Assembly (NCBI GenBank): GCA_963965975.1
Contig: CAWYPL010000003.1
Span: forward strand, 16,358 to 80,357
Direction: 5' to 3'
Origin: Xestospongia bergquistia
Taxonomy: Eukaryota > Porifera > Demospongiae > Haplosclerida > Petrosiidae
DNA length: 64,000 nt
The notes beneath the pieces were generated by a model. The model saw only the letters and a list, made by a program, of their open reading frames with translations, had not been told where the DNA came from and made no database searches. The translations under genes were made by a program, and so were the position numbers. Of the stretch, positions 17,043-38,874 are shown in pieces. Every line of letters starts with the position of its first letter. The first letter of the stretch is position 1.

Positions 17043-18247
17043 TGCCAATCCAGACAATGATAGTGACACAATCTACATCAAGTGAAACTTCTACACAATC
17101 TACAGCCAGCAACAGAACACTGAGATGATTTATTCCTTTAAATTATGAGGTCCTACTTAAATGACAATATGGCAGACCCCAGAAATGAACACTAAACAAC
17201 ATATCCATACCATTACCAGACTCCAGCAAAGACACAGAAGAAGATGCAGATGAAGACACAAATACAAACATCATAACAAAATTATGAACCATACTCTAAC
17301 ATTGTAAAACCATTAAAGTTAACATTTAAAACTATAATTTAATATTTTCAAGATGTTAAATTCACATTTCAAGACCACTGTATTTCAAAACCATTAAATT
17401 TCACATTTTGAACTATAAATTAATAATTTCAGGGCCATTGTATTTCAAAACTATCAAAATTCACATTTTAAAACTGCAATGTATTTATTTTTTAACACTG
17501 CCATTACAATTATTGTAAGACCATTGTTAAATAACCACTGCACACCTGTGTAAGTTCATCATTCCAGAACCATTTTACATGTACTGTTATTTTGATACTG
17601 TTGTAAATCTATAAAATTTCAAGACCTTATAACTTTCAGTAGCAGATCCAGGGGGGCTTGGGGGCCATGCCCCCTGGCCCCAATTTTTCACCTTTTGCAT
17701 ATGAAATATGTACCAAACAGGTTGGCCCCCTGGCCCCAGACATAGGGCCATGACTAACTAACCATTTTGCACCTTGGCCCCCCCATCTCAATCCTGGATC
17801 CGCTACTGACTTTTTATTAAGATCACCACATAATGTTTTCAACTGCCCAAAACTAAAGTCGACTGCATACTGATAATAATACTGCGAGATAAACATAGCA
17901 ACCAGTTGACTATGTACCGAACAGTTGACTGACTGACTGCTCCACAATTTTGAATTATAAAACCACTAAAATTGCATTATAGGACCATTAATAATTTACT
18001 TTGACACCACTGTTAAAATTAAACATTTTGATACCATTTGCGTACAAAATAGTTTTTTCTTGTAAATTATGTCACAACCATTTATACTGTTATTGTTAGC
18101 CATTACAGGACTGCATTTTCACACTGTTTTATTGTGTTCCAAGACCATTCATACTGTATATAAAGATTGCTGTAAATTATTACCATTCCAAGATCGCTTA
18201 TTGTATCGTTCACATTATACTGTTAATTTCTATATTTTTAGCATAGC
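17043..18247 (+). other. AT-rich 3' region, probably of element C
   Basis: No gene is seen. About three diverged 60-70 bp units (17300-17490) contain TATTTCAAAACCATTAAA and TTCACATTT. The word TTTCAAGACC, frequent in the C pol tail, recurs to about 18190. A MITE is inserted at 17637. Confidence 0.45.
17637..17808. mobile_element. 172-bp MITE with CAGTAGC termini
   Basis: The ends are inverted copies: CAGTAGCAGATCCAGG at the left and CCTGGATCCGCTACTG at the right. ACTTT flanks both sides. The interior is a G- and C-rich imperfect palindrome. The terminus recalls hAT-like CAGTGGCG ends, but the 5-bp flank does not fit an 8-bp hAT duplication, so the superfamily is open. Confidence 0.65.
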
Positions 18248-18300
18248 TAAAAGTGTTCATTTGGAAAGATTCTCTGAAACAGAACTGAATTAGAACTCTT

Positions 18301-18350
18301 TGGTTGACAAGCTTTCGCAGCCAAACATGGCTGCTTCTTCTGGTCTGTAT
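18301..18350 (-). ncRNA. Hammerhead-like motif in PLE1 left arm
   Basis: On the minus strand CAGAAGA is followed by a perfect 7-bp hairpin (GCAGCCA, loop TGTT, TGGCTGC), then GAAAGCTTGTC. This matches the order of a type I hammerhead core: CUGANGA, stem II, GAAA, cleavage triplet GUC. The U of CUGANGA is A here, and stem I is not convincing. PLE tails are known to carry minimal hammerheads, so this is probably a decayed one. Confidence 0.5.
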
Positions 18351-18786
18351 GGGAAAATGTTTTGCCTCAAGATTTCCAAAAAAATATTATTCTTCATAAT
18401 TTTGATAATTTATATCATGATGATATTTCTTTGTTGCAAGATGTTATAGAACAATTATAGAACTTATTGTTGTTATTATAAGCAAATGATGTTTATTGCT
18501 TATTAGATTGTAACTAAGTCTTTTGATGGTATAAGACTTGTTTTAGATGTTGTTATATGTTATATATGGTGCAGATGTTATTGCACCAATTGGTACATTA
18601 TGTAGGTTGCACAGATGTTATGTGCATTACTTATGGCACAGATGTTATTGTGCATTGCGAATGGCACAGATGTAATTATGCCCATTTCATGTAATATATT
18701 ACTGCACTGGTGTTATTGTGCATTATTTATGGCCAAGATGTTATTGAGCCATTTTTTTTGTTCATTTTGTTGAGCCATTACTTCAT

Positions 18787-19782
18787 TTTCAGTTCTGGGA
18801 TACTGAATAATATATTATCCCAGATGTGTGGGAGATTGTATTTTCCAATATTCCTATTGAGTGTGGGATTATTCACTCTTATGTACATTGACTCTTTGAT
18901 TGTTCTGGCCAAGCTGTTGTCTTCTCTTCCAATTATTTTGAAATTCTCTATGGATGTTTCATGGCCACTCATGTTCTGATGTTGGAATATTGGTGATGGG
19001 GCCTTCAAGTGTTCCTTGTATCTTTCCCCAAATGTTCTCCCTGATTCACCAATGTACTCTTCACCACAGTCAATGCTCCACAGGTGTAGCTATATATCAC
19101 ACTGTTCTTACTGGTGATTCTGTCTTTATCTTTAGGTGACACTAAGATGTTTTTCAGTGTCTGACCTCCCTTGAAGTGTATGTCTACTCCATGTTTCTTG
19201 CAGATCTTCTTTAAGCTTTCACCTATGCCTTGGTTATATGGAACCACAATATGGCATTTGGCAGGAATCTTGGTTCTAGGGGTCTGCTTCTTCTCTTTGT
19301 TTTGATGTTTCTTGGAGATCTTCTTGATAGCCCACTTTGGATATTTACATAGTCCAACTACCTGCTCCAGATGCTGTAGTTCTTTCTCAGTTAACTCAGG
19401 AGCTGAGCAGATGGTATGAGCTCTGTGTGTAAGTGTACTAATAACACTGTACTTGGCAGCTATGTTGTGGTTACTGTCCCATGGGAGGTACAGGTCAGTA
19501 TGGGTGGGTTTCCTATACATGCCTATTGTGAAGGTTCCATCTACCTCTGGTCTAATGATGGTATCCAGGAAGGGTATGGAACCATCTTCTTTTGCCTCCT
19601 CTACAGTAAACTGGATGGATGGATCTACTGTATTGATGTGCTGGAGGAACTCATCCTGATGTGCTTGATGTTGCAGCACAAAGGTATCATCTACATACCT
19701 TTTCCATATCCTGGGGGGTGCAGTGCTGTTGTAATGGCCCTGTTTTCAAAAGCCTCCATGAATATGTTAGCTATACACAAGA
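18787..19782 (-). pseudogene. PLE1 RT C-terminus plus GIY-YIG endonuclease
   Basis: The frame is open from the breakpoint at 19782. It contains the RT catalytic box RYVDDTFV (YVDD at 19686-19697), then IPFLDT and GMYRKPTHTDLYL of the RT thumb, a basic linker, and SVIYSYTCG at the start of the endonuclease. A frameshift near 19085 moves the rest into another frame: EEYIGESGRTFGERYKEH, then IKESMYIR and NPTLNR. These are the YIG, Arg and Glu landmarks of the GIY-YIG nuclease of PLEs. The gene is 5'-truncated and shifted, so inactive. The ends of the linker and the nuclease resemble the Poseidon-like group, which is inference. Confidence 0.88.
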
Positions 19783-20232
19783 CATAGGTGAAAGCTTAAA
19801 GAAGATCTGCAAGAAACATGGAGTAGACATACACTTCAAGGGAGGTCAGACACTGAAAAACATCTTAGTGTCACCTAAAGATAAAGACAGAATCACCAGT
19901 AAGAACAGTGTGATATATAGCTACACCTGTGGAGCATTGACTGTGGTGAAGAGTACATTGGTGAATCAGGGAGAACATTTGGGGAAAGATACAAGGAACA
20001 CTTGAAGGCCCCATCACCAATATTCCAACATCAGAACATGAGTGGCCATGAAACATCCATAGAGAATTTCAAAATAATTGGAAGAGAAGACAACAGCTTG
20101 GCCAGAACAATCAAAGAGTCAATGTACATAAGAGTGAATAATCCCACACTCAATAGGAATATTGGAAAATACAATCTCCCACACATCTGGGATAATATAT
20201 TATTCAGTATCCCAGAACTGAAAATGAAGTAA
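19783..20232 (+). pseudogene. PLE1 inverted copy of linker and endonuclease
   Basis: Plus-strand mirror of 18787-19227. It begins abruptly inside the linker (IGESLKKICKKHGVDIHF) and carries the same frameshift before the YIG motif as the other arm. The frame at 20002-20232 encodes the nuclease C-terminus with IKESMYIRVNNPTLNR. There is no RT domain in this arm. Confidence 0.88.
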
Positions 20233-20465
20233 TGGCTCAACAAAATGAACAAAAAAAATGGCTCAATAACATCTTGGCCATAAATAATGCACAATAACAC
20301 CAGTGCAATAATATATTACATGAAATGGGCATAATTACATCTGTGCCATTTGCAATGCACAATAACATCTGTGCCATAAGTAATGCACATAACATCTGTG
20401 CAACCAACATAATGTACCAATTGGTGCAATAACATCTGCACCATATATAACATATAACAACATCT
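20228..20465 (+). repeat. About 30-bp hairpin repeats in PLE1 3' UTR
   Basis: About seven units based on GCACAATAACATCTGTGC, each with its own GCAC/GTGC dyad, follow the endonuclease frame. The reverse complement is at 18545-18782 in the left arm. Confidence 0.7.
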
Positions 20466-20659
20466 AAAACAAGTCTTATACCATCAAAAGACTTAGTTAC
20501 AATCTAATAGGCAATTAACATCATTTGCTTATAATAACAACAATAAGTTCTGTAATTGTTCTAAAACATCTTGGAACAAAGAAATATCATCATGATATAA
20601 ATTATCAAAATTATGAAGAATAATATTTTTTTGGAAATCTTGAGGCAAAACATTTTCCC

Positions 20660-20709
20660 ATACAGACCAAAAGAAGCAGCCATGTTTGGCTGCAAAAGCT
20701 TGTCAACCA
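20660..20709 (+). ncRNA. Hammerhead-like motif in PLE1 right arm
   Basis: Mirror of the left-arm motif with further decay: CAAAAGA before the hairpin and CAAAAGC instead of CGAAAGC after it. The 7-bp hairpin is intact. Confidence 0.45.
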
Positions 20710-20797
20710 AAGAGTTTTAATTCAGTTCTGTTTCAGAGAATCTTTCCAAATCAATTATATAACAGAATGAGATGTTTAATCAAGTTAAAAGTGTTCA

Positions 20798-22290: not shown

Positions 22291-22470
22291 ACCGACAGTA
22301 GGAAAAATACATCAACAGGACCTACGCTTATTTAGTAGACATCAATGTGAGTACAAATAAGGTGTAAATGTGGGTGTCAAATTTATAATATAGATCACTA
22401 TACCTTAATAAGTCATATACATGTCACATAGATGTATCTTAGTATAAAAATTAAAGCTTCTCTAACAAAC

Positions 22471-22910
22471 TGTTACGTATGCTTTTCCCAAGTCAGAATC
22501 CGCCTCTGCGTGTCAGGCATTTTCATCCAAGTATAAAGTTAACTAAGTAAACTAAGTACATCTGTCATAAGGATGACATCTGTCATCCAGGCTAAAGTGG
22601 CATGTGTCAAATGAATTTCCTACTAGCATAAGTAGCATTTCCTATTAGCTTAAGTAGATTAAGTAAACACCTGCAAACATAATCCTTAACTGCCAATTAA
22701 GTCAATAAGGAAACAGACTAGTCCCTTCCTTGATGTACCATATAAATACTCTGGTAAAATCTGTAATAATGCATTCAGTGACATGATGTAAAGGATAACC
22801 AATAGCTTCAGTAAAGGATCACAGATCACAATGTATATTGGAGAGTATTAGTTATTATTTCTGCAAAGAACTCTGAAGGACTGGATACACATACAGTGCA
22901 TTCTGTAACA
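22471..22910 (+). repeat. 5' LTR of A
   Basis: A 440-bp LTR starting TGTTACGTATG and ending CTGTAACA. It has TATAAATA at 22741. It is longer than the 3' LTR because that copy lost two short segments, one of them including the TATA box. Confidence 0.92.
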
Positions 22911-24207
22911 TGGTGGCAACAAAATGTGGATATAAACATATTTTGGAAACTATGACCTAATAGAAAGTGTCTACAAAATTTTCCAGTCATTTTGAACACA
23001 TCTGAGCTCAGTTTCAGCAGCCAAATCAAGTTCAGTATATATGGAATATACAGTGCAGAATCTACATCATAAGTGGGTATTACTGCCCAAAATGACAAAT
23101 CCAGCTTCAAGGGTCCAGTAAGATACACTTACCCTTGTTTTTCCTATAGGTTTCATAAGATTTGGTTCAATTTTAGATGTAAATTTGCTGAATTTGCTAA
23201 GCTAATCTAACCTGATTCTTGCCAATGAATGGCAGCCATTTTTTTTGTGAAAAGTTAAGGAGAGAAAGGAATTCTGAGTAAAGTCAGAATAATATATATA
23301 TATATTTTTTCTCAAACTCAACAGATCAAGTTAATTTATACACCCTTGGAAAGACAATATTATAAGGAGCAAGAATATATAGCTTTAATCTAATAATTCC
23401 CAGTAATCACTGAGAAATCGAAGGTTAAAGATGTGCACAAGGAATTCTGGGTACAAGTTAAAATAATATTTTTTAAAACCCTCAACAGATCAAACAATTA
23501 ATACATCTTCAGAAAGGTTATTTTATAAGAAACACAAATATACAAGTTTCATTTAGAAACTCTCAGTATCACCAAGATATCAAAGGTTAAACATTGTGGG
23601 TGACCTTGACCTTTTGGTGCCAAAATTGTGAAGTTCAAAATACCTAAATATCCCATAATTATCTCATAAACTACTAATCCTAGAGCAAAAGCATTTATAT
23701 TTTTGGAACCCACATCAAAAATTACATATAACAGTCATTTTTCAACTCATTCTATGATAAAGTACTATATACTCATAGATAACTTATTATATATAGATAA
23801 CTTATTATGGTACCCATCTTTATTTGTCACTAAATGTAACAATATATAGTATCTGTATATGCAACATTGTATGCATATGTAATATATATGCATAGCATAG
23901 GGAAAACCAAAGGTTCTTTTTCAAATAGATCAGAGGGGTTGAATCTAGTTGTGGTTACATGGTGCAAAGCCCTCTAGGAAATTGGTGTTCATGCCAAAAG
24001 TACAGAGAGTGTGAGGCAATTCCCTCTAATCTACATTGGGAAATCCTTACAGGGTTACTGAAGCCTGCTGAATACTGTGTGTTCATGGTTGAGGTAGTGA
24101 TCAGTTGTGAAATAGGCTGTCCATAGAAGATAATATATTAAATATCAAGGTATATCACAGTCAGGTGTTAAGAGTACATTTAGCAATAGGATACTGTAAT
24201 AACCAAT
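22911..24207 (+). other. Leader of A with diverged tandem duplication
   Basis: Non-coding leader of about 1.3 kb. It opens with TGGTGGCAACAAAATG, a plausible primer-binding site because such sites start with TGG; the tRNA is not identified. Two roughly 185-bp units (about 23245-23430 and 23431-23610) share AAGGAATTCTG, CTCAACAGATCAA and the final AAGGTTAAA in the same order. Confidence 0.6.
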
Positions 24208-25262
24208 ATGAATAAGATAGGTAATCCAGACTTTAACTGGAGTGAACCATCACTAGAAAATTAATTCATCAGGTTAAAGAGAATGGCCAGAAACAACTTT
24301 ATAGCACACAAAGCAACAAATAGAGAACAAGAAGGCAGTTTTCTAAGAGGCTGGATAGGAGACATAGGTGAGCAAAAACTAGAGAGTTTCAACTGGACAG
24401 ATGATAACTTCTACACCCAAGATGAAATATTGGAAAGACTACAGCAGGTCATACAACCAAGTACTATAGCTCAAAATAAAAATACAAAAAAGATTTAATT
24501 ACATATAGGCAGACAACAGAAACCTTTAGTCAATTTTTTGTAGAACTCAAGAGAAGGTATGATTTGGCCAAAGACAACTCTAAATACTTATGCAGGAAAT
24601 GCAACAAATGCAAGGAATGTGTGGAAAGGATGAAACAAAAAGACTTAATGTCTTATATATACATAGGTGTTAGGGAGCAAAGAGATAGGGAGCTAATGGA
24701 CCAACTAGCAACAGCAGACCACACCCTAGAGAAGTATAAAAGCATGTGAAGGTTGTGACACTACTGGTAATAATGCACAAATTTTTAATAACACAGGTAC
24801 TGAAGAAGGTGGTGCTACAGGTGGTAATATACATGCTTTCAGAGGTAGAGGCCAAGGTAAAGACAATAATGTTAACAATAGAACAAAATGTCAAAACTGC
24901 AGAAACTTCCACAAAAAGGATGCATGTAGGGCTAAAGACCAAAAATGTAGTATATGTCATAAAATAGGTCATGTCAACAAAGTATGCCAGAGAAGACAAA
25001 AAACTGCAGCACAAGGTCAAACACAGAGAGGATTTATACCAAAACAGAAACCCAGCAGATTTGGAGGTAAACAAATACATGAAATTGAAAATGATAATTT
25101 GTATATAGTAGATAGTGCAGGCAATCAGATAGGCATCACTGACTATGATAGTGTCAACCAGGCCTCCCAGGAACTAAACTATGCAATAATTGATTCAATA
25201 GAATTTTCTTTAGATCCAGGTAGAGGCAAGCTAAAATATAATTCCAAGAATTACAATGTTTA
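24208..25262 (+). pseudogene. gag: A gag
   Basis: Starts with MNKIGNPDFNW as in B but meets a stop at about 24262. The rest follows in pieces: 24283-24498, 24564-24749, then the nucleocapsid around 24880-25000, with a CQNC.NFHKKD knuckle and a second CX2CX4HX4C knuckle. Where B has a TAG near the end of gag, A reads CAG, and where A has TAA (25261) B reads GAA. The stops are therefore private, and the ancestor had gag and protease in one open frame. Confidence 0.82.
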
Positions 25263-25787
25263 AATTAATCAAGTCTTGCATGCCAAAACATGGAAAGAAG
25301 CAGAGACAACAATCCTGATGTACCCATCTGATGACAAGGGAAAGATAACAGGAAGACCCAAGGGCATGAGGAGCAAGCTGGACACAGGTGCAGGTGCTAA
25401 TATAATGTCTTTGAGTACTTACAGGTCTATCAATCCAAGTGACTTTGACAAAGATGGTAACCCTACTGGAAATTTCCAAAGAACAAGCACTGGATTGAAA
25501 TCATTTGGGGGCAGCCAGATACAACAATATGGTATAAAAACCATCAAGTGTGTCTGGGACAAGAAACTGTGGTTATTAAATTTTCACATTGTAGATGGAA
25601 AAGGACCCATCATGATAGGGTTAGGAACAATGCTGAAGCTAGACATGATCCAGTTTCATCCCCAAGTTCACATCTCTTGCATAGACATAAATGCAATCTG
25701 AGCCAGCCTGGTTAGAAAGGTTAGAAAGATGCAGAGATTGATCTTATGTCTAAGACTTATGACACTGATTCTGTTTTAGAATGACTA
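25263..25787 (+). pseudogene. pol: A aspartic protease
   Basis: The frame at 25276-25701 includes KLDTGAGANIM, the retropepsin active-site loop (from 25375), and a hydrophobic flap-like part ending GPIMIGLGTM-like. A stop at 25699 and a 1-base loss just after it separate it from RT. In the RT frame a TGA followed by CTAG lies at 25782, the same as in B. Confidence 0.82.
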
Positions 25788-27175
25788 GAAGATGGCAATG
25801 AAGTCATAGACATCACCACAGGGTGGCATGAAGAAAAAGATTATACAAAAATGCATAACTCAAATAATGTAAATATATTGTCCATAGCTAAGGTCCCAAG
25901 ATACATCCACCCAGAGAGTGACCTTCAATCAAGACCATCAACAGTAAGGCAGATATAAAAGAAATGTATCCTGAATGTTTTGGTGGTGTTGGTATGTTTG
26001 AAGATTTTGAGTATGAAATCAAGGTTGATCCAAAGGTGAAACCAGTGGTCCATGCAGTAAAGAGAGTCCCAATTGCTTTACAACCCAAACTAGAGGCAGC
26101 TCTAGATGAGATGGAGATGAAAGGTGTAATATCAAAGGTAGAAGGGTTTACCCCCTGGACCAACTCACATGTGATCCAGAGAAAGCAAATGGTAAGTTGA
26201 GGATTTGTTTAGATCCTAAGGATTTAAACACAGCAATCATAGATGATCCCCATCCTATTCCTACCCTAGATGACATAACCCACAAGTTAAATGGTTCAAC
26301 TTTGTATGGCAAGCTAGATGCAGATTAAGGTTATTGGAATGTAAAATTAACAAGAGTCATCTATGTTAACATTTAATTCCAATACTAGACTAGGTAAATA
26401 CAAGTTTGACAGATTACCTTTTGGAGTTTCAGAGAAAGGTTGATGAGACATACTATGCATGTAGAGGTGCAGTGGGAATAGCAAATGACATCTTGGTATA
26501 TGGGACAGAAAGCAATTTTGACCTCCACTTGCATGAAGTTATGGAAGCCACAAGACAAGCAGGTATAAAATTAAACCATGATAAATGATATCATAAAGAC
26601 CAAGTCATAGTTTTTCTGGAAATGTTTACACTCCAGCAGGTGTGAAACCAGACCCAAAATAAGGTGGAAGCCATAAAGAAGATGGAAGGTATGGTGACCT
26701 ATTTAGGTAAATTTGTTCAAAATGTTTCAGATATGACATATAACATGAGGAAACTCCTCAAAAAGAATGCTTTATTTCAGTGGACTGAGACCCATGAAGC
26801 TGGTTTCCAGAAGCTGAAGGAGATGTTTACCAGTCAAGAGTGTTTAGCTTACTGTGACCAAAAGAAAGATATCTTTTTGCAGGTTGATGCTTCAATCCAA
26901 GGATTAGGTGCAGCCCTGATACAAAAAGATCAGCAAGGTAGACTGAAACCAGTTGCATATGCATCAAAGAGTCTCACTGATGCTGAGAAGAGATATTCAA
27001 ATATTGAGTGTGAATTACTTGCAGTTGTCTTTGGCTGTATTAGATTCCATCACTATTTGTATGCTAGAAAATTTGAATGTCATAGTGACGATAAACCTCT
27101 AGAAGACATCCATCTGAAACATTAAGTGCATTCCAGGTAAGAACGTGGCAATAGCAGATGCCTTATCATGAGTAA
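25788..27175 (+). pseudogene. pol: A reverse transcriptase and RNase H
   Basis: RT landmarks are VPIALQPKLEAALDEMEMKG, a TPWTNSH segment, LRICLDPKDLN, and a catalytic box that reads IANDILVYG (about 26478), where B has IADDILVYG. The first catalytic aspartate is thus lost. RNase H is well kept at 26880-27120 (LQVDASIQGLGAAL, YASKSLTDAEKRYSNIE). About 75 bp are missing at 27124 relative to B, between two TTAAGT words. Confidence 0.85.
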
Positions 27176-28628
27176 ACCCTAATGGCAATATCAAGGTTAA
27201 AGGGTTGGATGTTACAGTTCATAAAATGAGTCCATGTATTAGTCATTTGCAGCTGGTGCATATCCAGAGAGCTGCCCAGGAAGACCAGGTGTTACAGGTG
27301 TTGATGAGCAAAATGACAGAAGGCTTTCCAGAAAACATCAAGCAACTTCCTGTTGTATTGAGACCATTTTGGCAAATCAGAGATGATATGTCAATAGAGC
27401 ACTCCTGTTTGGCATACCAGGGTAGGTATTATATACCAAAACTATTAGAGAACAAGCCTTAGCAAGTCTCCATATAGGTCATCCAGGTGTGTTAAAGATG
27501 AAGCTTAGGGCACAGCAAAGTAAATACTGGTTAGGTATCAATAAGGACATTGAGAACCATGTAATGTCATGTGATCCTTGTCAGGTAAATGGTAGAAGTC
27601 AGCAGAAGGAACCAATAATACCTTTTGAAGTGCCAAACAGACCTGGGCAAAGAGTAGGTATAGACCTATTTCACCACAACAAGGGTTGGCATGTTATTGT
27701 AACTGATGATACAAGCCCTGCCAGCAACAGCTTCTGAAGATGTGATCTCTGCCTGGACCAAGGAGTTTAATGTGTGCAAGTCAGTGGGCTATACAAAACC
27801 TAAAGTCAGAATGAAAGTGAAGGCACACTACCAGATGAGCCTAGGTAGGATCCTGGCTATGTGTCAGGCACACTACAAGCCCATCTTGTCTTCACTGCTA
27901 GTGAGGTGGAGCTAGAGTGTACACATTGGGACCCAAAAAATGGTGAACTATGCCTCAGTAGGTTGAGGCCAGGGGAAACCCTGGTGGAGGGCCATAGCAA
28001 TTCTGACATGCAAATCAATCATCAAACTTGGGTGTAGGGGCACAAGTCTTGTTTTGCAGAATATGGAATACCAGAAGATGTTGTAAGTGACAATGGGAGT
28101 CAGTTCACTAGCCAGGAGTACCAGTTGTTTGTAGCATCATATGGTTTCAAGCTGACCACAAGCAGTCCTCATTATCCAAGAGGTCATGGGTTTGTAGAGC
28201 AACAGGTGCAAACCATCAAGAAGCTACTTACCAAGTACATCCAAGATGGATCTGACCCATTCCTAGCACTGCTTCAGCTGAGAACCACACCAATTGATAG
28301 CAGAACCCCATCACCAAGTGGGCTGCTACAAAACAGGAAGCTGTGCACAACACTGCCTGTGAACATCAGGCATCCTCCCAATAGTGAGGCCATCAGAGTA
28401 TTACTATGAGCCATACAGATGTTTAACCATCATGATGCTCATGCCAAGGAGATGATAGATCTCATCCCAAGGCAGCCTGTTTGGGTGCAAGACCCACATA
28501 CCAAAACATGGTATGAAGGTACTATTGTGTCAAAGGCTGAGACACCAAGATCATATATTGTGCAAACAAAATCAAGAATAGTGAGGAGAATAGAATTCAC
28601 CTCAAAGAAAGAAGGGTACCAGCAGTGA
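27176..28628 (+). pseudogene. pol: A integrase, interrupted by rRNA
   Basis: The zinc-binding domain (27205-27600) ends with HVMSCDPCQ, and the core starts with VGIDLFHHNKGW at 27655. At 27753 the element sequence stops, 290 bases of 28S rRNA follow, and integrase resumes at 28044. After that come SDNGSQFTSQ and GHGFVEQQVQ, which supply the second Asp and the Glu at D35E spacing. The C-terminal part ends at 28628 with basic residues. The insertion adds stops and shifts the frame. Confidence 0.85.
27754..28043 (+). rRNA. 28S rRNA fragment inside integrase (pseudogene)
   Basis: The 290 bases match a conserved part of eukaryotic large-subunit rRNA: GGACCAAGGAG near the start, GGTGAACTATGCCT (27943), GCCAGGGGAAACCCTGGTGG (27966 onward), TCTGACATGCAAATCAATCA and CAAACTTGGG near the end. 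Most differences from the rRNA pattern are CG to TG or CA. It is in the same orientation as the element. In B the site is uninterrupted (40982-41000). A lost only three bases there (ATT) and shows no target duplication. A functional rRNA gene is excluded by the short length and context. Confidence 0.93.
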
Positions 28629-29100
28629 AAGATCAGAAAGTAATAAGATTACAGGTAAAACCAAAAGAAGTGCCAAAGGTACCAGTTATACAGGAAAGTG
28701 TAAATAGGCCTAGCATAGTGAAAGTTCCATTAGTAAAAAGTGAGTATAAAAGTGTAACCAACAAGGAAAGTGAAAAGGTGGAAGGAAAAATCCCAAGATT
28801 TGTACCAAAATGAGAGCAAAAAGAGGAAAAGAAAAGTGAAAGTGAGGAAGTGATACAAAAAAGTGAAGCCCAGAACCCTAGGGTTGGCCATAATAATGCC
28901 ACACCCACAGTCTCAGCCTCCCAATCCCCTGACCCAAAACCAAATCCTATACCACCAATGAAACCCAAGGAGGTCAGCAAGAGCTCATAAGCCTAACCCA
29001 AGGTATATGGACACTATAGTAAAGGAAAAAGGTAATACACTGAATTACCTAAGTGGACTTTCTTTCGTGAAAGCAAAGAAAACTGTAAATATAGAACATA
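28629..29100 (+). pseudogene. pol: A pol C-terminal tail
   Basis: A Lys/Pro/Val/Glu-rich stretch (28625-28813, then other frames) aligned with B 41705-42173. Such basic tails commonly end gypsy Pol proteins. It is broken by a stop at 28811 and lacks the RRSARAHKP motif in frame. Confidence 0.6.
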
Positions 29101-29263
29101 TATATTATTGTAAATCAGATTAATAAGTGTATATAATATTGCATAATTTAATAATTTTAATAATTGTTAAAATTATAATAATTGTAATAATGTTTTATTA
29201 GATCAAGGGAACTCCCAAACACCGACTTTTCTGGTTTTAATAGGTCTTTATTAGCTTTATCTC

Positions 29264-29307
29264 TATAACAAACTAGTTTTGACTTGTAGGTCTTCTTCAG
29301 TGTTATG
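29264..29307 (-). ncRNA. Hammerhead-like motif in PLE2 tail
   Basis: The minus strand reads ATAACA, CTGAAGA, AGACCTACAAGTC, AAAACTAGTT, TGTTAT. ATAACA and TGTTAT can pair as stem I, CTGAAGA fits CUGANGA, GAC/GTC forms a short stem II, and a 2-bp stem III is possible. The only core change is A for G in the GAAA box. This is the minimal type I form described for PLEs, probably inactive. Confidence 0.6.
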
Positions 29308-29422
29308 AGTGCTTGGTAACACCATTCGTTTTTTATAGAAAATTCTAAGTAAATTTGCAGTAGGAAAAGCTAGCCAATATTTTCTAAATTGCAAGTTGAT
29401 ATTTTTAAAACAATGTATCTAT

Positions 29423-29442
29423 GGGGGGTATACATACCCCCC
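29423..29442. repeat. Perfect G6/C6 palindrome in PLE2
   Basis: GGGGGGTAT, AC, ATACCCCCC forms a 9-bp stem with a 2-base centre, just after the zinc-finger frame stop. It could be an RNA hairpin of the 3' UTR. Confidence 0.7.
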
Positions 29443-29449
29443 AGAATGT

Positions 29450-30045
29450 TTATATAGAGTCTATTAGTTTCCATAGGTCTTCATTTTCATCAAGGGTCTC
29501 CTCCTCTCTGTCATCTGATTCTAGATTTCTTAGCATTTGATCTAGTTCATTTAGGGATGCTGATATGGAGTATTCCTGGTTTAGTAGGTGGTCTATTTCC
29601 TCTGACAGACTAGATGTAGCAGGTTGTGGTCTTGGGTCTTGTAAAGGCTCTGTAGCTTCTAGAGGTATAATGATGGGCTCTGGTTGGTGATATGGTCTTG
29701 AATGCTTTGTTTGAGTATCTAGTTCATGCAGTATCCAAGGGAAAATCTCCTTGTTTTTCAGTAATGATTGTTGATATATATAACTGTTAGTGTTCTTAGG
29801 ATCTGCCTGGTATGCTCTGGTTTCTATGCATGAATTTTTAGATCTTGGTATCTTTGGTATGGCTTTAAAATTGGACAAAAGTTTTCTTTGGTGAGTTTTA
29901 GTATGCCTTTTTAGGGTATCTTTCCTCAGTGAACTATAATTACAATCTAGGCAGTAGTGTTTGTTGTTGTGACTTTTTAAGTGTCTTTTTAGATCTCCAT
30001 GTTGTTGTACATGTTGCCACGTCTTTCACATAGTAGATTCTCCAT
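29450..30045 (-). pseudogene. PLE2 zinc-finger reading frame
   Basis: From an ATG at 30045 the minus strand encodes a first C2H2-like unit whose second Cys is Arg (CGT at 30019-30021). A frameshift near 30000 follows, then the finger's LKRHLKSH end and a complete second finger, CLDCNYSSLRKDTLKRHTKTH (Cys codons in 29942-29953, His codons in 29891-29905). About 140 residues follow, Pro/Gln-rich and then acidic, to a stop at 29450. It lies downstream of the endonuclease and may be a separate ORF, or the first ORF of a tandem neighbour unit. The function is unknown; nucleic-acid binding is likely. Confidence 0.75.
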
Positions 30046-30292
30046 TTCTGTTGTTCTTTATTTAGTCATTGTTGTTGTTTATTTGTTATTATATCCTTTA
30101 ACCTTTATGCAAGCTGTATGTTTATCGTTGCTATGTTTGATCGTCTTTTGTTTACTTTTGAGGTGTCATCATGATTTGCTTCACAATCGACCCTTGTCGG
30201 TTATCAACCATTGGTGAGTGTGATTAAAAAAGTGCAGTTTCAATTCAGATCTTCATTGTGCCATTCCAATTCAGGTTAGGTTTCATATTGGA

Positions 30293-31161
30293 TTACCATC
30301 TACCATTGAGGCCTCTTGGCATTAGGGTATTTAGTAGAGTCATCCAAGATTCTTCCAATCTCAGCCTTCTGTTTTTATCTTTTTCTTGGTCAACTATTGT
30401 GATTGAGTAGTCATCTATGGTGTGATTATATGATCTATAGTGTATTGCTACTGGGTGATCCTTATTGGTTCTTATGGAGCTTTCATGGTTTCTACATCTA
30501 CAGTTCATACTGTTGGAGGTCTTCCCCACATATTGAATATTGCAGATATTACAGGTCATCACATAAATGATGTCATTTGATTTGCAGTTAAAGTTGCCTC
30601 ATTGGATATGAGTAATTTTCCCTGCTTGAGACTACATAAGAGGTGTTCATGTGACTGCATGTTAAGCATCTTGCTTGCAGGCAAGGTTGACTTAAATTGG
30701 GTTTGTTGTTGAAATGTATGTTTGATTTAACTAATTTGTCCTTTAAGTTTGGACTTCTGCTGTAGGTGATTTGTATTTGGTCTGGTGTGATTGCTGATTT
30801 CCTTGTCATCAGTAATAGTCCTTCATATTTTTTTAAGATCTGATGAAGATTGGGGTTCATAGGGTTGTAGTTGGTGATTAGTCTGATCTTGTTGGTACTT
30901 TTCTTTGGGGTTGGTCTTAGGAGGATTAGTCTATCCATTTTTCTTACTGTTTCCATGGCTTCATCAAGTAGGGTGATTGGGTATCTTCTGAGTTTCAGTT
31001 GGTTATATATTTTCTTGGCTTCTTGTTCAAAATGGTGGTCTTCTGTACATATTCTCTTGCATCTGATTAGAAGTCCATAAGGGACTGAGTTTTTCTGATT
31101 TCTTGGGTGAGCAGAGTTGTAATGTATATAGTATTTCTGGTCAGTTGGCTTGTGGTACATT
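30293..31161 (-). pseudogene. PLE2 linker and GIY-YIG endonuclease
   Basis: The frame 31160-30588 continues from RT after a frameshift near 31165: MYHKPTDQKYYIHYNSAHP, then a long basic linker ending with CLQARCLTCSHM. A one-base shift near 30588 leads into the nuclease: DIIYVMTCNICNIQYVGKT (I-Y and Y-V-G motifs), catalytic Arg in NCRCRNHE and a Glu in RLEESW. The stop is at 30293. The endonuclease nicks target DNA in PLEs. It sits C-terminal to RT, so this is not one of the PLEs with an N-terminal nuclease. Confidence 0.9.
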
Positions 31162-33008
31162 CTAGTATATATTCTGTTGTTTTTGAGATCTGTACACCAT
31201 TGTGTCTAGGAATGGGATTTCATTCTGGTCAATATTGTATGTAAATTTTATTTTGTTGTGATGGTTGTTGAATGCTTTCAAGAATTTGTCTAATTCCATT
31301 CTTCCAAATTGCCAGATCATCAATATGTCATCAATAAACCTTAACCAGGTTTTTGGTTGTTTAGGGTAGTTTGAGAGGAAGTTTGTTTCCAGGTAGTGCA
31401 TAAAGATAATGGCATAATTGGGTGCCATTCTGGTTCCCATAGCTGTCCCTTGGGTTTGTTCATATAGTTGTCCATTGAAGTTGAAGAAGATTTTTGTAAG
31501 TACTTGGAGGGCTAGGTTAGAAATGAACATTTTTAGAAGGGTGTCAGTCCCTGTTTCCTCCATCATTCTATTTATGGCTGCTATGCCTTCATTATGTGAA
31601 ATGTTTGTATATAGGTAACTGACATCAATGGTTACAAGCAGGTCTTCAGGGTCTAGTTGAATGTTTTTCATTATGTTGATAAAGTGGGTTGTGTCCATTA
31701 TATAACTGGGTATTCTGGGTGTATATTGTTTCAAATGGGAGTCCACAAAGGCTGAGATTTTTTCTGTGATAGATCCTATGCTGTTAACTATTGGTCTTCC
31801 TGGATTTCCTGGTTTGTGTATTTTTGGTAGTATATAAAAAGTTGATGTCCTGGGATTCTTTGTTTGTAGGCTTTCCTTGGTTGTGTCTGTTATGATTCCT
31901 AATCTCCAAGCTTGATCAATAAGGTGATGTATGTATTTGTTGTAATTGGTTGTTGGGTCTGAAGTTAGTGGCTTGTAGTGTTCTGGGTTGAGTAATTGTC
32001 TGTGGGCTTCCTGAATATAATCTGCTTTATTCATGATGACTATACTGCCTCCTTTGTCTGCTGGCTTAATAACTATGTTGTTGTTATGTAGGTCCCTCAT
32101 AGCCTGAACTTGTTTCTGTGGTAAGTTATTCTTTCTTCTAGATGTGGTGGGGGTTTCTAGTTCTTTTAAATAGGCTTTTATTATAGAGTGTCTATAAGTA
32201 TCTAGAAAGGGATCTTGTCCACTAGGTGGGGTCCAGCCTGAACTGGGCTGTAGTATCTGATTGTGGTTTGGTTGTTGTGATATTTGGGATTGGTTTCCTA
32301 TATCTGTAAAATGGTATTTTAATCTGACTCTTCTATCAAAAAGGAGTATGTCTTGAAGCATTTTTGCTGGGTGGTCTCTTCTGGGGGTTGGTATGAAATG
32401 GGAGTCCTTTCGACAAAAGATTGATTTCATCCTTGGATAGGTGATGATTACTTAAATTTGTTATTGGGGGGTTGGGCTTCTGATACCTGTGATTATTATG
32501 TTTCTTTTTGCTTGGTTGTTGCTGGTTGAGGTGGGAGTGGGTTGTTTGGACTTCTTCCTTTTGAGTTCCTGTTGTGTTTCTCTTGCTATTTGTGCTAGTA
32601 TGTCTTCTATTGTATTCCATTGGTCCTGGTTGGTTAGGGTTTTTAAGTTATGTAGGATGGGGGAGTATTCCTGTTCAAGTCTGCTGGATCTGTCTTTCCA
32701 GTAATCTCTGAGCTTTTCTGTAAGGATCAAACCTGCTCTCTGTAGAGAGTCTTCCCATTCAGTAGTGAATGTTGCTGGAGTATCTGGTATTCTGGGTGTG
32801 ACCTTAGGTATGAGACCTCTGGGGGGTCTGCTTGAATCTATGGATGCTTGGAGCAACTCTGTGTGATGATTGGCTCTTTCTATGCCTCTGGTTAGCTTGA
32901 AAAGGGCTTTTAGATGTCCTTGTAAGGAACTGTCCAGTTCCACTCTGTTTTTGATTATGTGTAAGTTTGGAGTATTAGTTGCTATGGTTTGGTTTATATA
33001 ATGGCATT
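31162..33008 (-). pseudogene. PLE2 reverse transcriptase
   Basis: The reading is open from the very 5' boundary at 33008, so the gene is 5'-truncated. It passes through frames at 32943-32461 and 32620-32336 before the main 422-residue frame 32430-31162. Motifs in order are IVIKPADKGGSIVIMNKADY, FYILPKIHKPG, RPIVNSI, LLVTIDVSYLYTNI, GTAMGTRMAPNYA and the catalytic RFIDDILMIW. IPFLDTMVYRSQ follows. These are standard PLE RT motifs, and both catalytic aspartates are present. The protein would prime and copy its RNA at target DNA. Confidence 0.9.
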
Positions 33009-33120
33009 ATAATTGTAATAATGATAATAATTGTAATAATTGTAATTGTAATAAGTGCATAATATTGTATAATTATATTATGATGTGATCCTATATCAGT
33101 AAATAGGCATTTATTTTTTT

Positions 33121-33131
33121 TGTGAGGGGGA
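33121..33131 (+). promoter_or_regulatory. Polypurine tract of A
   Basis: TGTGAGGGGGA directly precedes the 3' LTR. The same GTGAGGGGGA precedes the LTR of B at 42358-42367. Confidence 0.7.
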
Positions 33132-33531
33132 TGTTACATATGCTTTTCCCAAGTCAGATGATATTGCCTGACATGCAGAGGCAGATTCTAAGTATAAAGT
33201 TAACTAAGTAAACTAAGTACATCTGTCATAAGGATGACATCTGTCATCCAGGCTTAAGTGGCATGTGTCAAATCAATTTCCTACTAGCATAAGTAGCATT
33301 TCCTATTAGCTTAAGTAGATTAAGTAAACACATGCAAACATAATCCTTAACTGCCAATTAAGTCAATAAGGAAACAGACTAGTCCCTTCATTGATGTACC
33401 ATATGCATTCAGTGACATGATGTAAAGGATAACCAATAGCTTCAATAAAGGATCACAGATCACAATATATATAGGAGAGTATTAGTTATTATTTCTGCAA
33501 AGAACTCTGAAGGACTGGATACACAGTAACA
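33132..33531 (+). repeat. 3' LTR of A
   Basis: A 400-bp LTR, TGTTACATATG to CAGTAACA, preceded by the purine run GTGAGGGGGA. Compared with the 5' LTR it lacks 24 bp including TATAAATA, lacks about 13 bp near its end, and has 33 bp (33157-33189) inverted. AATAAA is at 33444. Confidence 0.92.
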
Positions 33532-33536
33532 CAAAC

Positions 33537-34629
33537 AGTTCAGTTACTTTTAACATTAAAATGGAAAAAAAACCCCTAAAAGCAGCAAACAAAATATGGT
33601 CAAGAAATTTGAAATAGAAGTCACATTGGAACTTGAACTCGGATGAATATGAGTATCACATAGCTATATATATGTACAAAACTTAGTTTCTTGGACAAAT
33701 GCTTCTGTTGCGATTGATACAAAGAGAAAAATAAATATAACTGCCAATTGTTGCGACTTACAAAACCAGACGTATTTGCATATTGTATAAACACACGTGT
33801 ACAATCTGAAGCAGCTAAGTGGAACATCTCAAGAATTGCAGGGATAGAAAACAAAAATAAATCCCAGAAAAACCAAATGATCTTGTATTTGGTACATAAA
33901 TATGATTACCAAACATGGAATACCCATCGTTTGACAAATTAATTGGTGTGCATACTCATGGTACTTGTGTACATGCCTACAAAATGTGAAGCCTGTACAG
34001 CAAAAACAAAGGCCTGTAGGACAGATGACAACAAACCATCGCATATGCAAAATCAACCGAAAAACAATAGAAAATACACCTGTGTTATTTTTTGGTTTAT
34101 TAATTTTCAGGGAGCATCTGGATTTTCTGGATCTGGATTGGAACTAAAGGCAAAAAAAGACGGTCCAGCAATGATGTCATGATCTTGTATTTGGTACAGA
34201 TCTACTCCTAATATCGATTAGTTCACTTGGCAAAAAGGTGGGCACAATGCGATACAGGTGTCAATTTTAATATATACATTTGCATCTTTGGAAATTCTGA
34301 GCTATTCGTTCCAGAAACATTTTGATAAATGCTATCTAAATAGTAACTAAGTAACTATACTAAAACTTTTACTATAGTAAAACCTATCTTGCTCGGACCT
34401 AATTTTGTGCGGAGACCTTGTCATCCATGGATAACTCTCAAATGAACTGGAATTTTAAGCAGTTTACCTCCTTTGCACGCACAAACCTGTCCTATGCAGA
34501 CAATGGACACCTCTCTGCACTGAAGAACTCTTAAAACCAGTTTTGCAAGGACAAAATTTAAGCAAAATTTACACAGGCAGTGTCATCTCACTTCATAAAA
34601 GGCAAATGAAAGTGCACAGAAGTGCATTA
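33537..34629. other. No gene recognised, CpG-richer
   Basis: No family-like reading frame. CpG pairs are noticeably commoner than in the flanking retroelements. A 19-base word TGATCTTGTATTTGGTACA is repeated at 33879 and 34180. TAGTAAAACCTATCTTG at 34375 looks like a pogo-type terminus, but no inverted partner was found. Confidence 0.4.
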
Positions 34630-34815
34630 CAGGTTGGTCCCGCTTAAGCCTGATTTTTTGGAGCATGAAAATATGTCCAGCTTAGCAGTAATCCGGCTTA
34701 ACAGTACTAATTTGCATTAAATTAATTAAATTATACAAATAATAAATTATGCATAAAATCCGGGCTAAAGGGGAATCTGGCTTAACCGCTGTACGGCTTA
34801 AGGGGGACCCACCTG
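34630..34815. mobile_element. pogo-type MITE, copy 1
   Basis: A 186-bp element with CAGGTTGGTCCCGCTTAAG at the left and GGGGGACCCACCTG at the right, flanked by TA on both sides. It is the same family as 41452-41638. The CAG terminus and TA duplication fit pogo/Tigger within Tc1-mariner. Confidence 0.85.
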
Positions 34816-35455
34816 TATTATAATTTTTAGCGATTTCTTTTATGTATGTTCCTTGAATTTTAAATTAAGTTAAACATGTAAATGTGTTACCAACGATGCA
34901 ATATCGTAAAACCTGTGTTGGACGGTCTCCCGCTCATACCTGTAAAGTTTTTTGTAAAAAGGAAATAAACTGCTGTTTCTAATATTGCAAATTGTTTATT
35001 GTTTAGATATTTCTTATATTTACTGGTAATATAAATACAAAAGACCTCAATGACTATTTACACAGTATACAGAATATATTCCTAATTACAGAAATTTTTA
35101 ATTTGAATAGAGTTTGTCATGAAATTTGAGCTATAAATATTTACGAAAAATAACGATGAAAGTTTCATCATACATACACACTGTATCATCATAAGCAATG
35201 ATCTATATCATTTCGCAGGTCAAGCGAATATCCGTTTTATAGTGGTTTGAGATAGAACACCCTATGCTTTGGCCTCAACACAATACATTAGCCTTAGTAC
35301 CTAATATCTCATGGATACAATCAAACCTGCATTTTTGTACCTCTTGCTTAACCACTGAGTAAACCTCCCTCCAAAATGTGGCATCACTACTTTATTGAAA
35401 CTCGACTTGATAAATCTTTACCTCGAATTTGTTATTAATTTTGGTTAAGAAATTA

Positions 35456-36474
35456 CAGGTCAGGTCCGGTTAGGTCGACTTTCACGGGTAGTAAAGAATT
35501 CCGTCGATTTAACCGATCCTCAACACAACTGGCAGGATGCTTGGTACCTGAGCTAAATACTGCTGGGGCTGAGATTGGTTGGCCAGCTGACGTAATTGTT
35601 AAAGCATTTGGATGGGTCGGACAGGATGGACATTCTCCTGGGGAGGGAACCTCAGGTCAGCTGGCTGACTTAAATCATTAAAGCAGCTGGATGGGTCTGG
35701 CCTGATGTTTTCTCAGGGTAGGGGAGCTCATCAGTTGGGTGACGTTATTGTTTAAGCAGTTGGATGGGTTGAACAGGCCAGACATTCAGGGAAGGGGAAT
35801 ACAGTTGGCCTCATTCTGGGAAAAAGGGCCAAAGCAGAGCTATGCACAGTGCTCACTGGCTGGGCTTGCGCTTTGCTGGCTCAAAATGGAATCCAGCTTG
35901 TAGAAAGCTTTTTTTCGGAACAGACGAAAGAGTGGCCTATTCTCTGGGAAGGCTGATGCTCCGCTGGCCAGGAATGGAATCTAGCTGAAGGTGGCCCCTT
36001 CGCGCATGGTCGACATGAAATACAGTATATACAGCATCATCTTGAAGTCAAAAGTTACACATGCATGACATTACATTTTGTGATGATAAATCTACTGTAC
36101 TTGTCACAAATGAACTGAAATATACTGTAGTACAATAGTCAATTTCGTAAAAGCCATTAAGGCAGAAGCCAATACACCAGATTGATTTTTTTTTCATCTA
36201 ATGTTGCACAAATATACAGCTCCAGAATTTTACACATCCAGTGTCTGACAACCATGCTGGGATGTATTGTATGAAATAAGGCTGGTATGTTTTGATAAGG
36301 CTCTGTTGATGTTCCCTTAAACAAAATACAGTAAGTTAGTTTAACTGGTCCGAATTTCATGAAAATGGGACTTTGGTTTGAATAAGTCGGTTTATCCAAT
36401 CTACAATACGAAACAATCGGGGAGTAGGAAATTGCATCGGTTTATTCTAGCTCGGTTAAACCGGAATCGACCTG
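35456..36474. mobile_element. 1-kb pogo-like non-autonomous element
   Basis: The ends are CAGGTCAGGTCCGGTT and, inverted, AACCGGAATCGACCTG, each next to TA. No transposase frame is visible. The interior holds tandem repeats (35576-35815) and further GGC-rich sequence to about 36010. Confidence 0.6.
35576..35815. repeat. Three 70-80 bp tandem units
   Basis: Each unit contains a GCTGACGT-type block, TTAAAGCA or TTTAAGCA, TTGGATGGGT and a later GGGGA block. Units start near 35576, 35655 and 35731. Confidence 0.65.
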
Positions 36475-36808
36475 TATATTCAAAAGGTATGTATAATCTA
36501 CAAAATGATTTGAAACAAAAGTGGTCCGCATTCCTCGGTAAGAACTCGACACTTTGTGAAGTACACTGATTAGTCTTTCTACACCCAGAAAGTGTCTATC
36601 GCAGTTTCATTAGGACGAACGATAGTAACTAATGCTATAAGGGCTATATTCCATTAGCTGGGTATAATGGAAGACAACAAAATAACTAGTTAAGCGCATA
36701 CGGCACGATATGACCTAGAGTTACAATACATATCTTTATATGTCACTAGGGCAAATTAATGTATGTTTCTTATTTTATGTGTGTGTACAATCAAAATATG
36801 CCTCCTAC
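36475..36808. other. No gene recognised
   Basis: AT-rich sequence between the pogo-like element and the gap. It does not match the leader of A, so the left end of B is not visible. Confidence 0.4.
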
Positions 36809-37008
36809 NNNNNNNNNNNNNNNNNNNNNNNNNNNNNNNNNNNNNNNNNNNNNNNNNNNNNNNNNNNNNNNNNNNNNNNNNNNNNNNNNNNNNNNNNNNN
36901 NNNNNNNNNNNNNNNNNNNNNNNNNNNNNNNNNNNNNNNNNNNNNNNNNNNNNNNNNNNNNNNNNNNNNNNNNNNNNNNNNNNNNNNNNNNNNNNNNNNN
37001 NNNNNNNN
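36809..37008. other. Assembly gap (200 N)
   Basis: Exactly 200 N. Sequence to the right resumes inside the leader of element B, at the position matching 23920 of A. Confidence 0.99.
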
Positions 37009-37293
37009 CAAATAGATCAGAGGTGTTGAGTCTAGTTGTGGTTACATGGTGCAAAGCCCTTGAGGAAATTGGTGTTCATGCCAAAAGTACAGAGAGTGTG
37101 AGGCAATTCCCTCTAATCTACATTTAGAAATCCTTACAGGGTTACTGAAGCCCACTGAGTACTGTGTGTTGATGGTTAAGATAGTGATCAGTTGTGTAAT
37201 AGGCTGTCCACAGTAGATAATATATTAAATATCAAGGTATATCACAGTCAGGTGTTAAAGTACACATAGTAATAGGATACTGTAATAGCCAAT

Positions 37294-38259
37294 ATGAGTA
37301 AGATAGGTAATCCAGACTTTAACTGGAGTGCATCATCACTAGAACAGGAATTCATCAGGTTCAAGAAAGTGGCCAGAAACAACTTTATAGCACACAAAAC
37401 AACAAATAGAGAACAACAAGGCAGTTTTCTAAGAGGCTGGATAGGAGGCATAGGTGAAGAAAAACCAGAGAGTTTCAACTGGACAGATGATAACTTCTAC
37501 AACCCAGATGAAATATTGGAAAGACTACAGCAGGTAATACAACCAAGTACTATACCTCAAAATAATAAATACAAAAAAGATCTAATTACATACAGGCAGA
37601 CAACAGAAACCTTTAGTCAATTTTTTGTAGAACTCAAGAGAAAGTATGATTTGGCCAAAGACAACTCCAAATACTTATGCAGGGAACACAACACATGCAA
37701 GGAGTGCATAGACAGGATGAAACAAGAAGACCTAATGTCTTATATATACACAGGGGTTAAGAAGCAAAGAGCTAGGGAGCTGATAGACCAACTAGCAACA
37801 GCAGACCACACTCTAGAGAAGTATAAAAGCATATGTGAAGGATGTGACATCACTGATAATAATGCACAAATTTTTAATAATACAGGTGCAGAAGAAGGTG
37901 GTGCTACAGGTGGTAATATATATGCTTTCAGAGGTAAAGGCCAAGGTAAAAACAATAACTACAACAATAGAACAAAATGTCAAAACTGTGGAAACTTTCA
38001 CAAAAAGGATCCATGTAGGGCTAAAGACCAAAAATGTAATATTTGTCATAAAATAGGTCACTTCAGCAAAGTATGCCAGAGAAGACAACAAACTGCAGCA
38101 CAAGTTCAAGCACAGAGAAGATTTACACCAAAACAGAAACCCGGCAGATTTGGAGGTAAACAAATACATGAAATTGAAAATGACAATTTGTATATAGTAG
38201 ATAGTGCAGGCAATCAGATAGGCATAACTGACTATGAAAGTGTCAACCAGGCCTTCTAG
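37294..38259 (+). CDS. gag: B Gag with two zinc knuckles
   Basis: An open frame of 321 residues starting MSKIGNPDFNW, the same start as A. Residues 1-180 are capsid-like with WIGGIGEEKPESFNW and FSQFFVELKRKYDLAKDNSK. A Gly/Asn-rich linker leads to CQNCGNFHKKDPC (CX2CX3HX4C) and CNICHKIGHFSKVC (CX2CX4HX4C), the nucleocapsid. Gag packages the RNA. The TAG at 38257 is CAG in A, so the stop is a private change and the frame originally ran on into protease. This is the longest intact gene of the element. Confidence 0.88.
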   Translation: MSKIGNPDFNWSASSLEQEFIRFKKVARNNFIAHKTTNREQQGSFLRGWIGGIGEEKPESFNWTDDNFYNPDEILERLQQVIQPSTIPQNNKYKKDLITYRQTTETFSQFFVELKRKYDLAKDNSKYLCREHNTCKECIDRMKQEDLMSYIYTGVKKQRARELIDQLATADHTLEKYKSICEGCDITDNNAQIFNNTGAEEGGATGGNIYAFRGKGQGKNNNYNNRTKCQNCGNFHKKDPCRAKDQKCNICHKIGHFSKVCQRRQQTAAQVQAQRRFTPKQKPGRFGGKQIHEIENDNLYIVDSAGNQIGITDYESVNQAF

Positions 38260-38874
38260 GAACTAAACTATGCAATAATTGATTCAATAAAATTTTCTTT
38301 AGATCCAGGTACAGGCAAGCTAAATTATAATTCCAAGAATTCCAATGTTGAAATTAATCAAGTTTTGCATGCCAAAACATGGAAAGAAGCAGAGACAACA
38401 ATTATGATGTACCCATCTGATGACAAGGGAAAGATCACAGGAAGACCCAAGGGCATGAGGAGCAAGCTGGACACAGGTGCAGGTGCTAATATAATGTATT
38501 TGAGTGCTTACAAGTCTCTCAATCCTAGTGACTTTGACAAAGATGGTAACCCTACTGGAATTTTCCAAAGGGCAAGCACTGTATTGAAATCATTTGGGGG
38601 CAGGCAGATACAACAATATGGTATAAAAACCATAAAGTGTGCCTGGGACAAGAAACTGTGGTTATTAAATTTTCACATTGTAGATGCAGAAGGACCCATC
38701 CTGATAGGGTTAGGAACAATGCCGAAGTTAGACATGATCCAGTTTCATCCCCAAGTTCATATCTCTTGCATAGACATAAATGCGATCCAACCCAGCCTGG
38801 CCAGGCAAGGTGAGAAAGATGTAGAGATTGATGTTATGTCTAAGACTAATGACAATAATTCTGTTTCAGAATGA
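38260..38874 (+). CDS. pol: B aspartic protease
   Basis: Open from the TAG at the end of gag to the TGA at 38872, in the gag frame. The active-site loop is KLDTGAGANIMYLS (from about 38464), and the flap/C-terminal part includes FHIVDAEGPILIGLGTM. The stop TGA is followed by CTAG, and the same frame continues into RT. The identical TGA is in A. It may be a decayed CGA or a readthrough stop. The protease would cleave the Gag-Pol precursor. Confidence 0.85.
   Translation, partial: ELNYAIIDSIKFSLDPGTGKLNYNSKNSNVEINQVLHAKTWKEAETTIMMYPSDDKGKITGRPKGMRSKLDTGAGANIMYLSAYKSLNPSDFDKDGNPTGIFQRASTVLKSFGGRQIQQYGIKTIKCAWDKKLWLLNFHIVDAEGPILIGLGTMPKLDMIQFHPQVHISCIDINAIQPSLARQGEKDVEIDVMSKTNDNNSVSE

Follow-up and report, generated by a model that had tools for sequence, protein, structure and literature searches.

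Organization of the locus

The window, that is, the whole 64-kb stretch of DNA analyzed here, spans positions 16358–80357 of an unplaced scaffold of 80,357 bp (C18) and harbors two related retrotransposons: element A, with a piece of 28S rRNA lodged within its integrase gene, and its sister, element B (Table 1). Judged from the order of the predicted pol domains (reverse transcriptase, RNase H, integrase), element A, together with B, is an LTR retrotransposon of the Ty3/gypsy type. It has two LTRs with TGTTAC...GTAACA ends and the same 5-bp sequence, CAAAC, on both sides, in agreement with the matching flanks claimed in the initial annotation. In element B, Pfam placed RVT_1 at 38938–39492 (under the cut-off, with 23.4 of 29.6 bits), RNase H at 39588–40388, H2C2 at 40389–40868 and rve at 40872–41150; in element A, RNase H was found at 26664–27125, H2C2 at 27426–27734 and the second half of rve at 28038–28406. 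The scaffold gaps at 4253–4452 and 36809–37008 leave A and B on different contigs, with the 5′ end of B removed. Among the best 120 matches listed, the closest ENA protein to element B reached 85% over 99% of the query. ARAGORN predicted no tRNA genes in the window.

Table 1. Coordinates, within the window, of elements A and B, the 28S insert and the nested element.
Feature	Position	Strand	Basis or remark
Left copy of target site duplication, CAAAC	22466–22470	+	Flank comparison
5′ LTR of element A (TGTTAC...GTAACA)	22471–22910	+	LTR comparison
Internal part of element A aligning with B, with RNase H and integrase zinc finger; also covers the stretch where B has a gag-like region, reverse transcriptase and the initial part of the integrase core	23922–27753	+	A/B comparison, Pfam
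28S rRNA fragment (290 nt), replaces ATT	27754–28043	+ (sense)	Rfam; comparison with element B and the assembly's own 28S
Remaining integrase and downstream part of element A	28044–29192	+	Homologous to parts of B 40995–42260; rve second half
Penelope-like element (reverse transcriptase, GIY-YIG) inside element A	29193–33005	−	Absent from B
3′ LTR of element A, 22 bp (33165–33186) inverted	33132–33531	+	Comparison with the 5′ LTR of A and the 3′ LTR of B
Right copy of target site duplication, CAAAC	33532–33536	+	Flank comparison
Sister element B, uninterrupted integrase site (GCCATTAAG)	37009–42798	+	5′ end lost at scaffold gap

The Penelope-like element most simply entered element A after A had integrated. 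Its closest ENA protein among the best 120 matches listed aligned at 88% over 92% of the query. The reverse transcriptase frame (429 aa) is open although the element retains only 8 CpGs of an expected 126; elements here may therefore be CpG-poor while they are still active. The inverted 22 bp of A's 3′ LTR correspond to 22498–22519 in its 5′ LTR, and the 3′ LTR of B is arranged like the 5′ LTR of A. A SINE-like repeat of about 190 bp occurs at 34628–34817 and at 41450–41640, the latter being an insertion that B has and A lacks; another small contig, C20, carries one more copy (81%).

The 28S insert and its junctions

At gathering thresholds, the Rfam search of the 64-kb window returned a single match, to RF02543 (LSU_rRNA_eukarya) at 27767–28066 on the plus strand, with 132.8 bits (gathering threshold of 50) and an E-value of 1.2e-31. 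The match corresponds to model positions 675–954 of 3401, so that the piece starts and stops within 28S. It overshoots by 23 bases into the element at the right and leaves out 13 bases of 28S at the left; the limits given in Table 1 were fixed by comparison with element B and the assembly's own 28S. The 28S identity, the length of 290 nt and the same-sense orientation proposed in the initial annotation were thus borne out. Element A does not fit the TRIMp3 group (Cassandra, Ajax, Helenus), which carries small-RNA-derived sequence in the LTRs: at gathering thresholds, Rfam matched nothing in the window besides the 28S insert within the integrase.

Element B reads ...CTCTGCC-ATT-AAGTCTTG... across the site and element A ...CTCTGCC-(TGGACCAAGG...GGGGCAC)-AAGTCTTG..., i.e., GCC-ATT-AAG of B is GCC-(290 nt)-AAG in A. 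Only ATT has gone, no base is duplicated and there is no poly(A) at the right end; the uninterrupted site in B and the loss of ATT without target duplication were as first described. At the right junction, three nucleotides overlap, with AAG also present in 28S at the same point (GAAAG), and the final base of the insert before AAG (C) agrees with neither 28S nor the element. No overlap with 28S was seen at the left junction. Among the features sought in a template-switch chimera, the insert thus shows the sense orientation and no target duplication of its own, with junction similarity at the right (AAG) only. A retroposition of rRNA of the LINE or SINE type was rejected, given the loss of 3 bp, the absence of both a target duplication and a poly(A) tail, and the internal rRNA ends.

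The insert is the derived state, since a relative from ENA, P0123 (498 aa), reads through the integrase site without a break. The integrase core of element A is split by the insert: the Pfam rve profile was matched over positions 25–102 in one frame of element B and just over 55–102 in the frame that follows the insert in A. Forty-six base pairs to the left of the insert, element A is also without 20 bp that both B and P0123 have.

Age of the capture

Outside the rearranged segment, the LTRs of element A differ at 7 of 340 columns (about 2%), none of them CpG-like. With that segment turned round, two further sites differ, in both cases because the 3′ LTR has lost a CpG. Aligned automatically over their full length, the LTRs gave 7.4%, a value caused by forcing the rearranged segment into register, and the trimmed figure was relied on. 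The non-CpG divergence between A and B was 6.4–6.5% in three segments of the body, 7.7% in the fourth and 11% in the LTRs, which therefore evolve faster than the body. The body rate was used for calibration as the cautious choice for the age argument.

The fragment's CpG decay, already recognized in the initial annotation, proved complete: the insert contains no CpG, and all nine CpGs common to the four 28S references have been lost. At CpG sites compared between A and B, 16 were TG/CA, 6 were CG/other and none was CG/CG, from which the probability of CpG loss was estimated at 0.91 (0.82–0.96) since the A/B split and at 0.54–0.67 since A's integration. For these few sites, the total loss of nine or eleven CpGs has a P of 0.01–0.08 if the capture took place in the last cycle, and of 0.37–0.44 if it took place near the A/B split. 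Non-CpG change in the insert amounted to about 4 in about 125 conserved sites, a weak excess (P of about 0.07). This count derives from 16 differences in 138 sites, with 6 set aside as lying outside the insert, 2 as CpG-derived by the Rfam consensus, 3 as natural variants in Rfam and 1 at the junction; 125 is a rounded denominator.

With all CpGs of the insert gone and a difference of only about 2% between A's LTRs, these sequence comparisons favor a capture that predates the last integration of element A, and the chimera itself would therefore have moved. The initial annotation implied a capture during the last replication cycle for a unique copy; the dating leans instead to an older capture and at least one further jump. 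This dating of the LTRs includes just three informative CpGs, two of them in the inverted 22 bp, and the 5′ LTR retains all three and the 3′ LTR none, for which unequal methylation could be a cause. Conversion between the LTRs, if present, would make element A look too young, and an already decayed rRNA pseudogene as the template would make the insert look too old. Between element A and the scaffold gap, a stretch of about 3.3 kb (33532–36808) has a CpG observed/expected ratio of 0.3–0.9, compared with 0–0.1 in most of the scaffold. As the flanks of A keep this many CpGs, methylation is likely to be uneven here.

Source of the rRNA

The conserved part of the fragment was 79% identical to three 28S copies on chromosome C9 over 108–116 bases. 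At 24 sites the host 28S departs from the human and yeast sequences, the alignment of the fragment's variable part being uncertain; the fragment has the ancestral state at 18 of them, the host-like state at 3 and another state at 3. Within the conserved core, the five host-derived sites were all ancestral in the fragment. In the core, the fragment shares 76.4% identity with the host's 28S, 77.2% with that of human, 80.5% with that of yeast and 82.1% with the Rfam consensus; raw identity barely separates the references and is less telling than the site pattern. The initial annotation had referred the fragment to the species' own 28S, of which most derived states are missing here. The host 28S was rejected as the source on the 18:3:3 pattern, the raw identity hardly discriminating, and from this pattern we take the rRNA not to stem from the present 28S lineage of the host.

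Origin of the scaffold

The assembly (146.5 Mb in 21 contigs) comprises 15 chromosomes of 5.4–28.2 Mb (C1–C15) and six other contigs of 19–98 kb (C16–C21), one of which, C21, holds mitochondrial genes, with a cox1 that we take to be demosponge-like. In the parts searched, repeats of the window were shared with the small contigs and hardly with the chromosomes. An 890-bp query around the insert matched, for the flanks in element A, only A and B on C18, and, for the insert, C18 and the rDNA of C9. Among the 19 matches of window positions 1–20000, 16 were on C16, C17, C19 or C20, one was on C18 and two short ones were on C13 and C1. Positions 43000–52999 gave one match, on C18, and 22400–37000 gave five listed matches (one on C20, three in the rDNA of C9 and a 99-bp one on C1); the flank at 33532–36808 had a single match on C20 and none on a chromosome. 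In control queries, 10 kb of C1 had 117 matches over many chromosomes and 10 kb of C11 had 97, all on C11 itself, so the latter shows local repeats only. The repeat queries span 44.6 kb of the 80 kb, and with only the best candidates scored and very common words skipped, they do not prove absence. When the assembly was searched with the reverse transcriptase/RNase H protein of B, 130 of 1025 candidate places were scored: two were on C18, one was on C19 (35%) and 127 were chromosomal, with 30–40% identity, as against the 85% of the closest ENA protein listed.

From these searches, we consider it highly probable that C18 comes from another organism than the assembly's host. The non-host site pattern of the 28S fragment agrees with this. 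Tetranucleotide profiles point weakly in the same direction, with rms z of 0.59–1.8 in chromosomal samples vs. 1.26–2.19 in pieces of C18, and these ranges overlap. CpG depletion does not discriminate, as the ranges overlap here too: the observed/expected ratio was 0.04–0.45 in chromosomal samples and 0.01–0.19 in the stretches read of the window and of C16, C17, C19 and C20. By their shared sequence, these four contigs are probably from another organism as well, and the small contigs sharing the repeats were probably retained in the assembly from an organism living with the host.

That the scaffold belongs to the host, as a heterochromatic or accessory compartment, with the element or the rRNA coming from elsewhere or being very old, seems improbable to us. 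It would account for the scaffold having been kept in the assembly, for the overlapping tetranucleotide and CpG ranges and for the nearly equal core identities of the fragment to host and human 28S; it is at odds with the placement of the repeat matches, with the distance of the nearest chromosomal reverse transcriptases among those scored, with the flank matched on C20 alone and with the missing host-derived states. The question is separate from the mechanism of insertion, and the likelihood given to it does not add to that of the alternatives weighed below. Small unplaced scaffolds in a chromosome-level assembly may thus carry repeat-rich DNA of another organism, and would mislead searches for horizontal transfer or for "species-specific" elements.

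The genome search proposed in the initial annotation, for other copies of the A family, returned only A and B among the candidates scored for the 890-bp query. Because this region of A and B was closely matched at the DNA level only within an 80-kb unplaced scaffold, a "unique copy" is weakly informative; hardly any of the source genome seems to be present in the assembly, and the absence of other copies therefore says little. No LSU match was found by Rfam at E 0.01 in C18 1–16357 and parts of C16, C17, C19 and C20 (53 kb in total). The arms of an inverted repeat at 18256–20754 of the window, each of 983 bp, match each other at about 98% and are separated by 533 bp; the repeat contains short repeated units.

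Mechanism of the insertion

Template switching during reverse transcription, whether before or in the last cycle, is in our view the likely origin of the insert. For its more specific form, a double switch before the last cycle followed by integration of a complete element, with a carrier from another eukaryote than the host, the case is somewhat better than even. The carrier would be a decayed Ty3/gypsy-type element of an animal or other eukaryote. On the RNA of an ancestral A, the reverse transcriptase would have jumped from the integrase gene of its template to the cell's 28S rRNA, copied some 290 nt of it and then jumped back to the element RNA at the shared AAG, three bases from where it had left. 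The resulting chimeric cDNA would then have been inserted into the genome as a whole element. At least one transposition cycle probably lies between the capture and the present copy, and intact relatives probably mobilized the element in trans, its own integrase being broken. Double template switching explains why the insert is in sense, has internal rRNA ends and no duplication, and is surrounded by a complete element; in its favor are also the exact empty site in B, the split integrase core, the LTRs with CAAAC and the AAG overlap. Against it stand the left junction, which has no microhomology, and the fact that repair of a break with an rRNA-derived filler makes the same type of junction; a single sense-oriented insert is, as evidence, a coin-flip. 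The two switches put forward in the initial annotation account well for the structure; the same structure would be given by a break filled with rRNA cDNA or rDNA.

According to this alternative, a double-strand break arose in the integrase region of A after integration and was filled with rRNA cDNA or rDNA, with the loss of ATT and perhaps of the nearby 20 bp as well. It fits the junctions equally well, namely the absent target duplication, the 3-bp loss and the little microhomology, and the 20-bp deletion would be a second lesion next to the first, but it does not fit the apparent age: the insert appears at least as old as A's integration and, on few sites, probably older. The sense orientation would moreover be expected in half of such events only, and we regard this origin as rather unlikely. 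Less likely still is that both switches occurred in the very cycle that made the present copy, as first proposed. The complete element with its intact target duplication and the lack of another observed copy speak for it; as set out above, the missing copies say little in this assembly, and the total loss of the insert's CpGs is improbable at the age of the LTRs. An assembly artefact fusing rRNA and element reads is very improbable. Two gaps do occur in the window's scaffold, but the insert lies about 8.8 kb from the nearest one, is CpG-depleted like the surrounding element and does not closely match the assembly's own rDNA.

A mobile non-autonomous 28S chimera may have existed, captured before the last integration, moved in trans and present at further loci. 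We consider this somewhat less likely than not; if true, a passenger 28S piece traveled through a genome within an LTR element. The left and right junctions each gave no match in viral_contigs when searched for a second chimeric copy, and no relative of B's reverse transcriptase/RNase H was found in viral_contigs or genome_contigs. A 70-aa frame across the left junction, the one frame used, had no candidate among 5.8 billion proteins as a protein of the chimera.

Comparison with known systems

Precedents are in print, and the unusual part is the position of 28S in the middle of a gene of an LTR element. The report on 28S/LINE-1 chimeras (PMC13174262) describes 18 loci, with a median of 269 nt and 83% in the LINE-1 direction, for which RNA ligation or template switching was proposed. 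As here, a few hundred nucleotides of internal 28S are fused to a retroelement, mostly in the direction of the element. Those chimeras, unlike the present one, are LINE-1 insertions produced by target-primed reverse transcription, and their extra RNA sits at the 5′ end, whereas rRNA internal to a full-length LTR element needs two switches. In LTR-mediated retroposition, exemplified by maize Bs1, cellular mRNA enters the cDNA of an LTR element through template switching at short similarities and is then integrated (PMC5408686, a review); the cargo there is mRNA, and here it is 28S rRNA within the integrase gene.

Abnormal template switching giving a chimeric daughter element is also described for complex LTR elements of the Triticeae (PMC1950507), where two parent elements were fused without cellular RNA. 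The TRIMs Cassandra, Ajax and Helenus likewise hold rRNA- or tRNA-derived sequence in an LTR retrotransposon and are presumed to be moved by autonomous elements (PMC10886601); their 5S or tRNA piece is located in the LTRs and regarded as a promoter, unlike the present 28S piece, which lies in the coding region and has no evident use. Evidence for double template switches comes from tripartite chimeras of Magnaporthe grisea (PMC2104539), in which LINE machinery fused three different transcripts, unlike here. In a literature search with a limited library and set of terms, no report of 28S within the pol of an LTR element was found. The locus is a clean fossil of a very abundant, structured cellular RNA entering an LTR element in mid-gene, and an LTR counterpart to the recently catalogued 28S/LINE-1 chimeras.

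The decay of CpGs within the insert had a visible direction. Between 27777 and 28042, all nine CpGs shared by the references became CA and none became TG (two-sided binomial, 0.004), as compared with 7 CA to 13 TG among the decayed CpGs in the rest of element A (Fisher, 0.0012 vs. the insert), although the test was made after the pattern had been seen, the Fisher value is 0.023 with two less certain TG sites, and with four still weaker TG sites the ratio of 9:6 shows no clear bias. A bias of cytosine deamination towards the minus strand in the chimeric cDNA would yield such CA-only decay.
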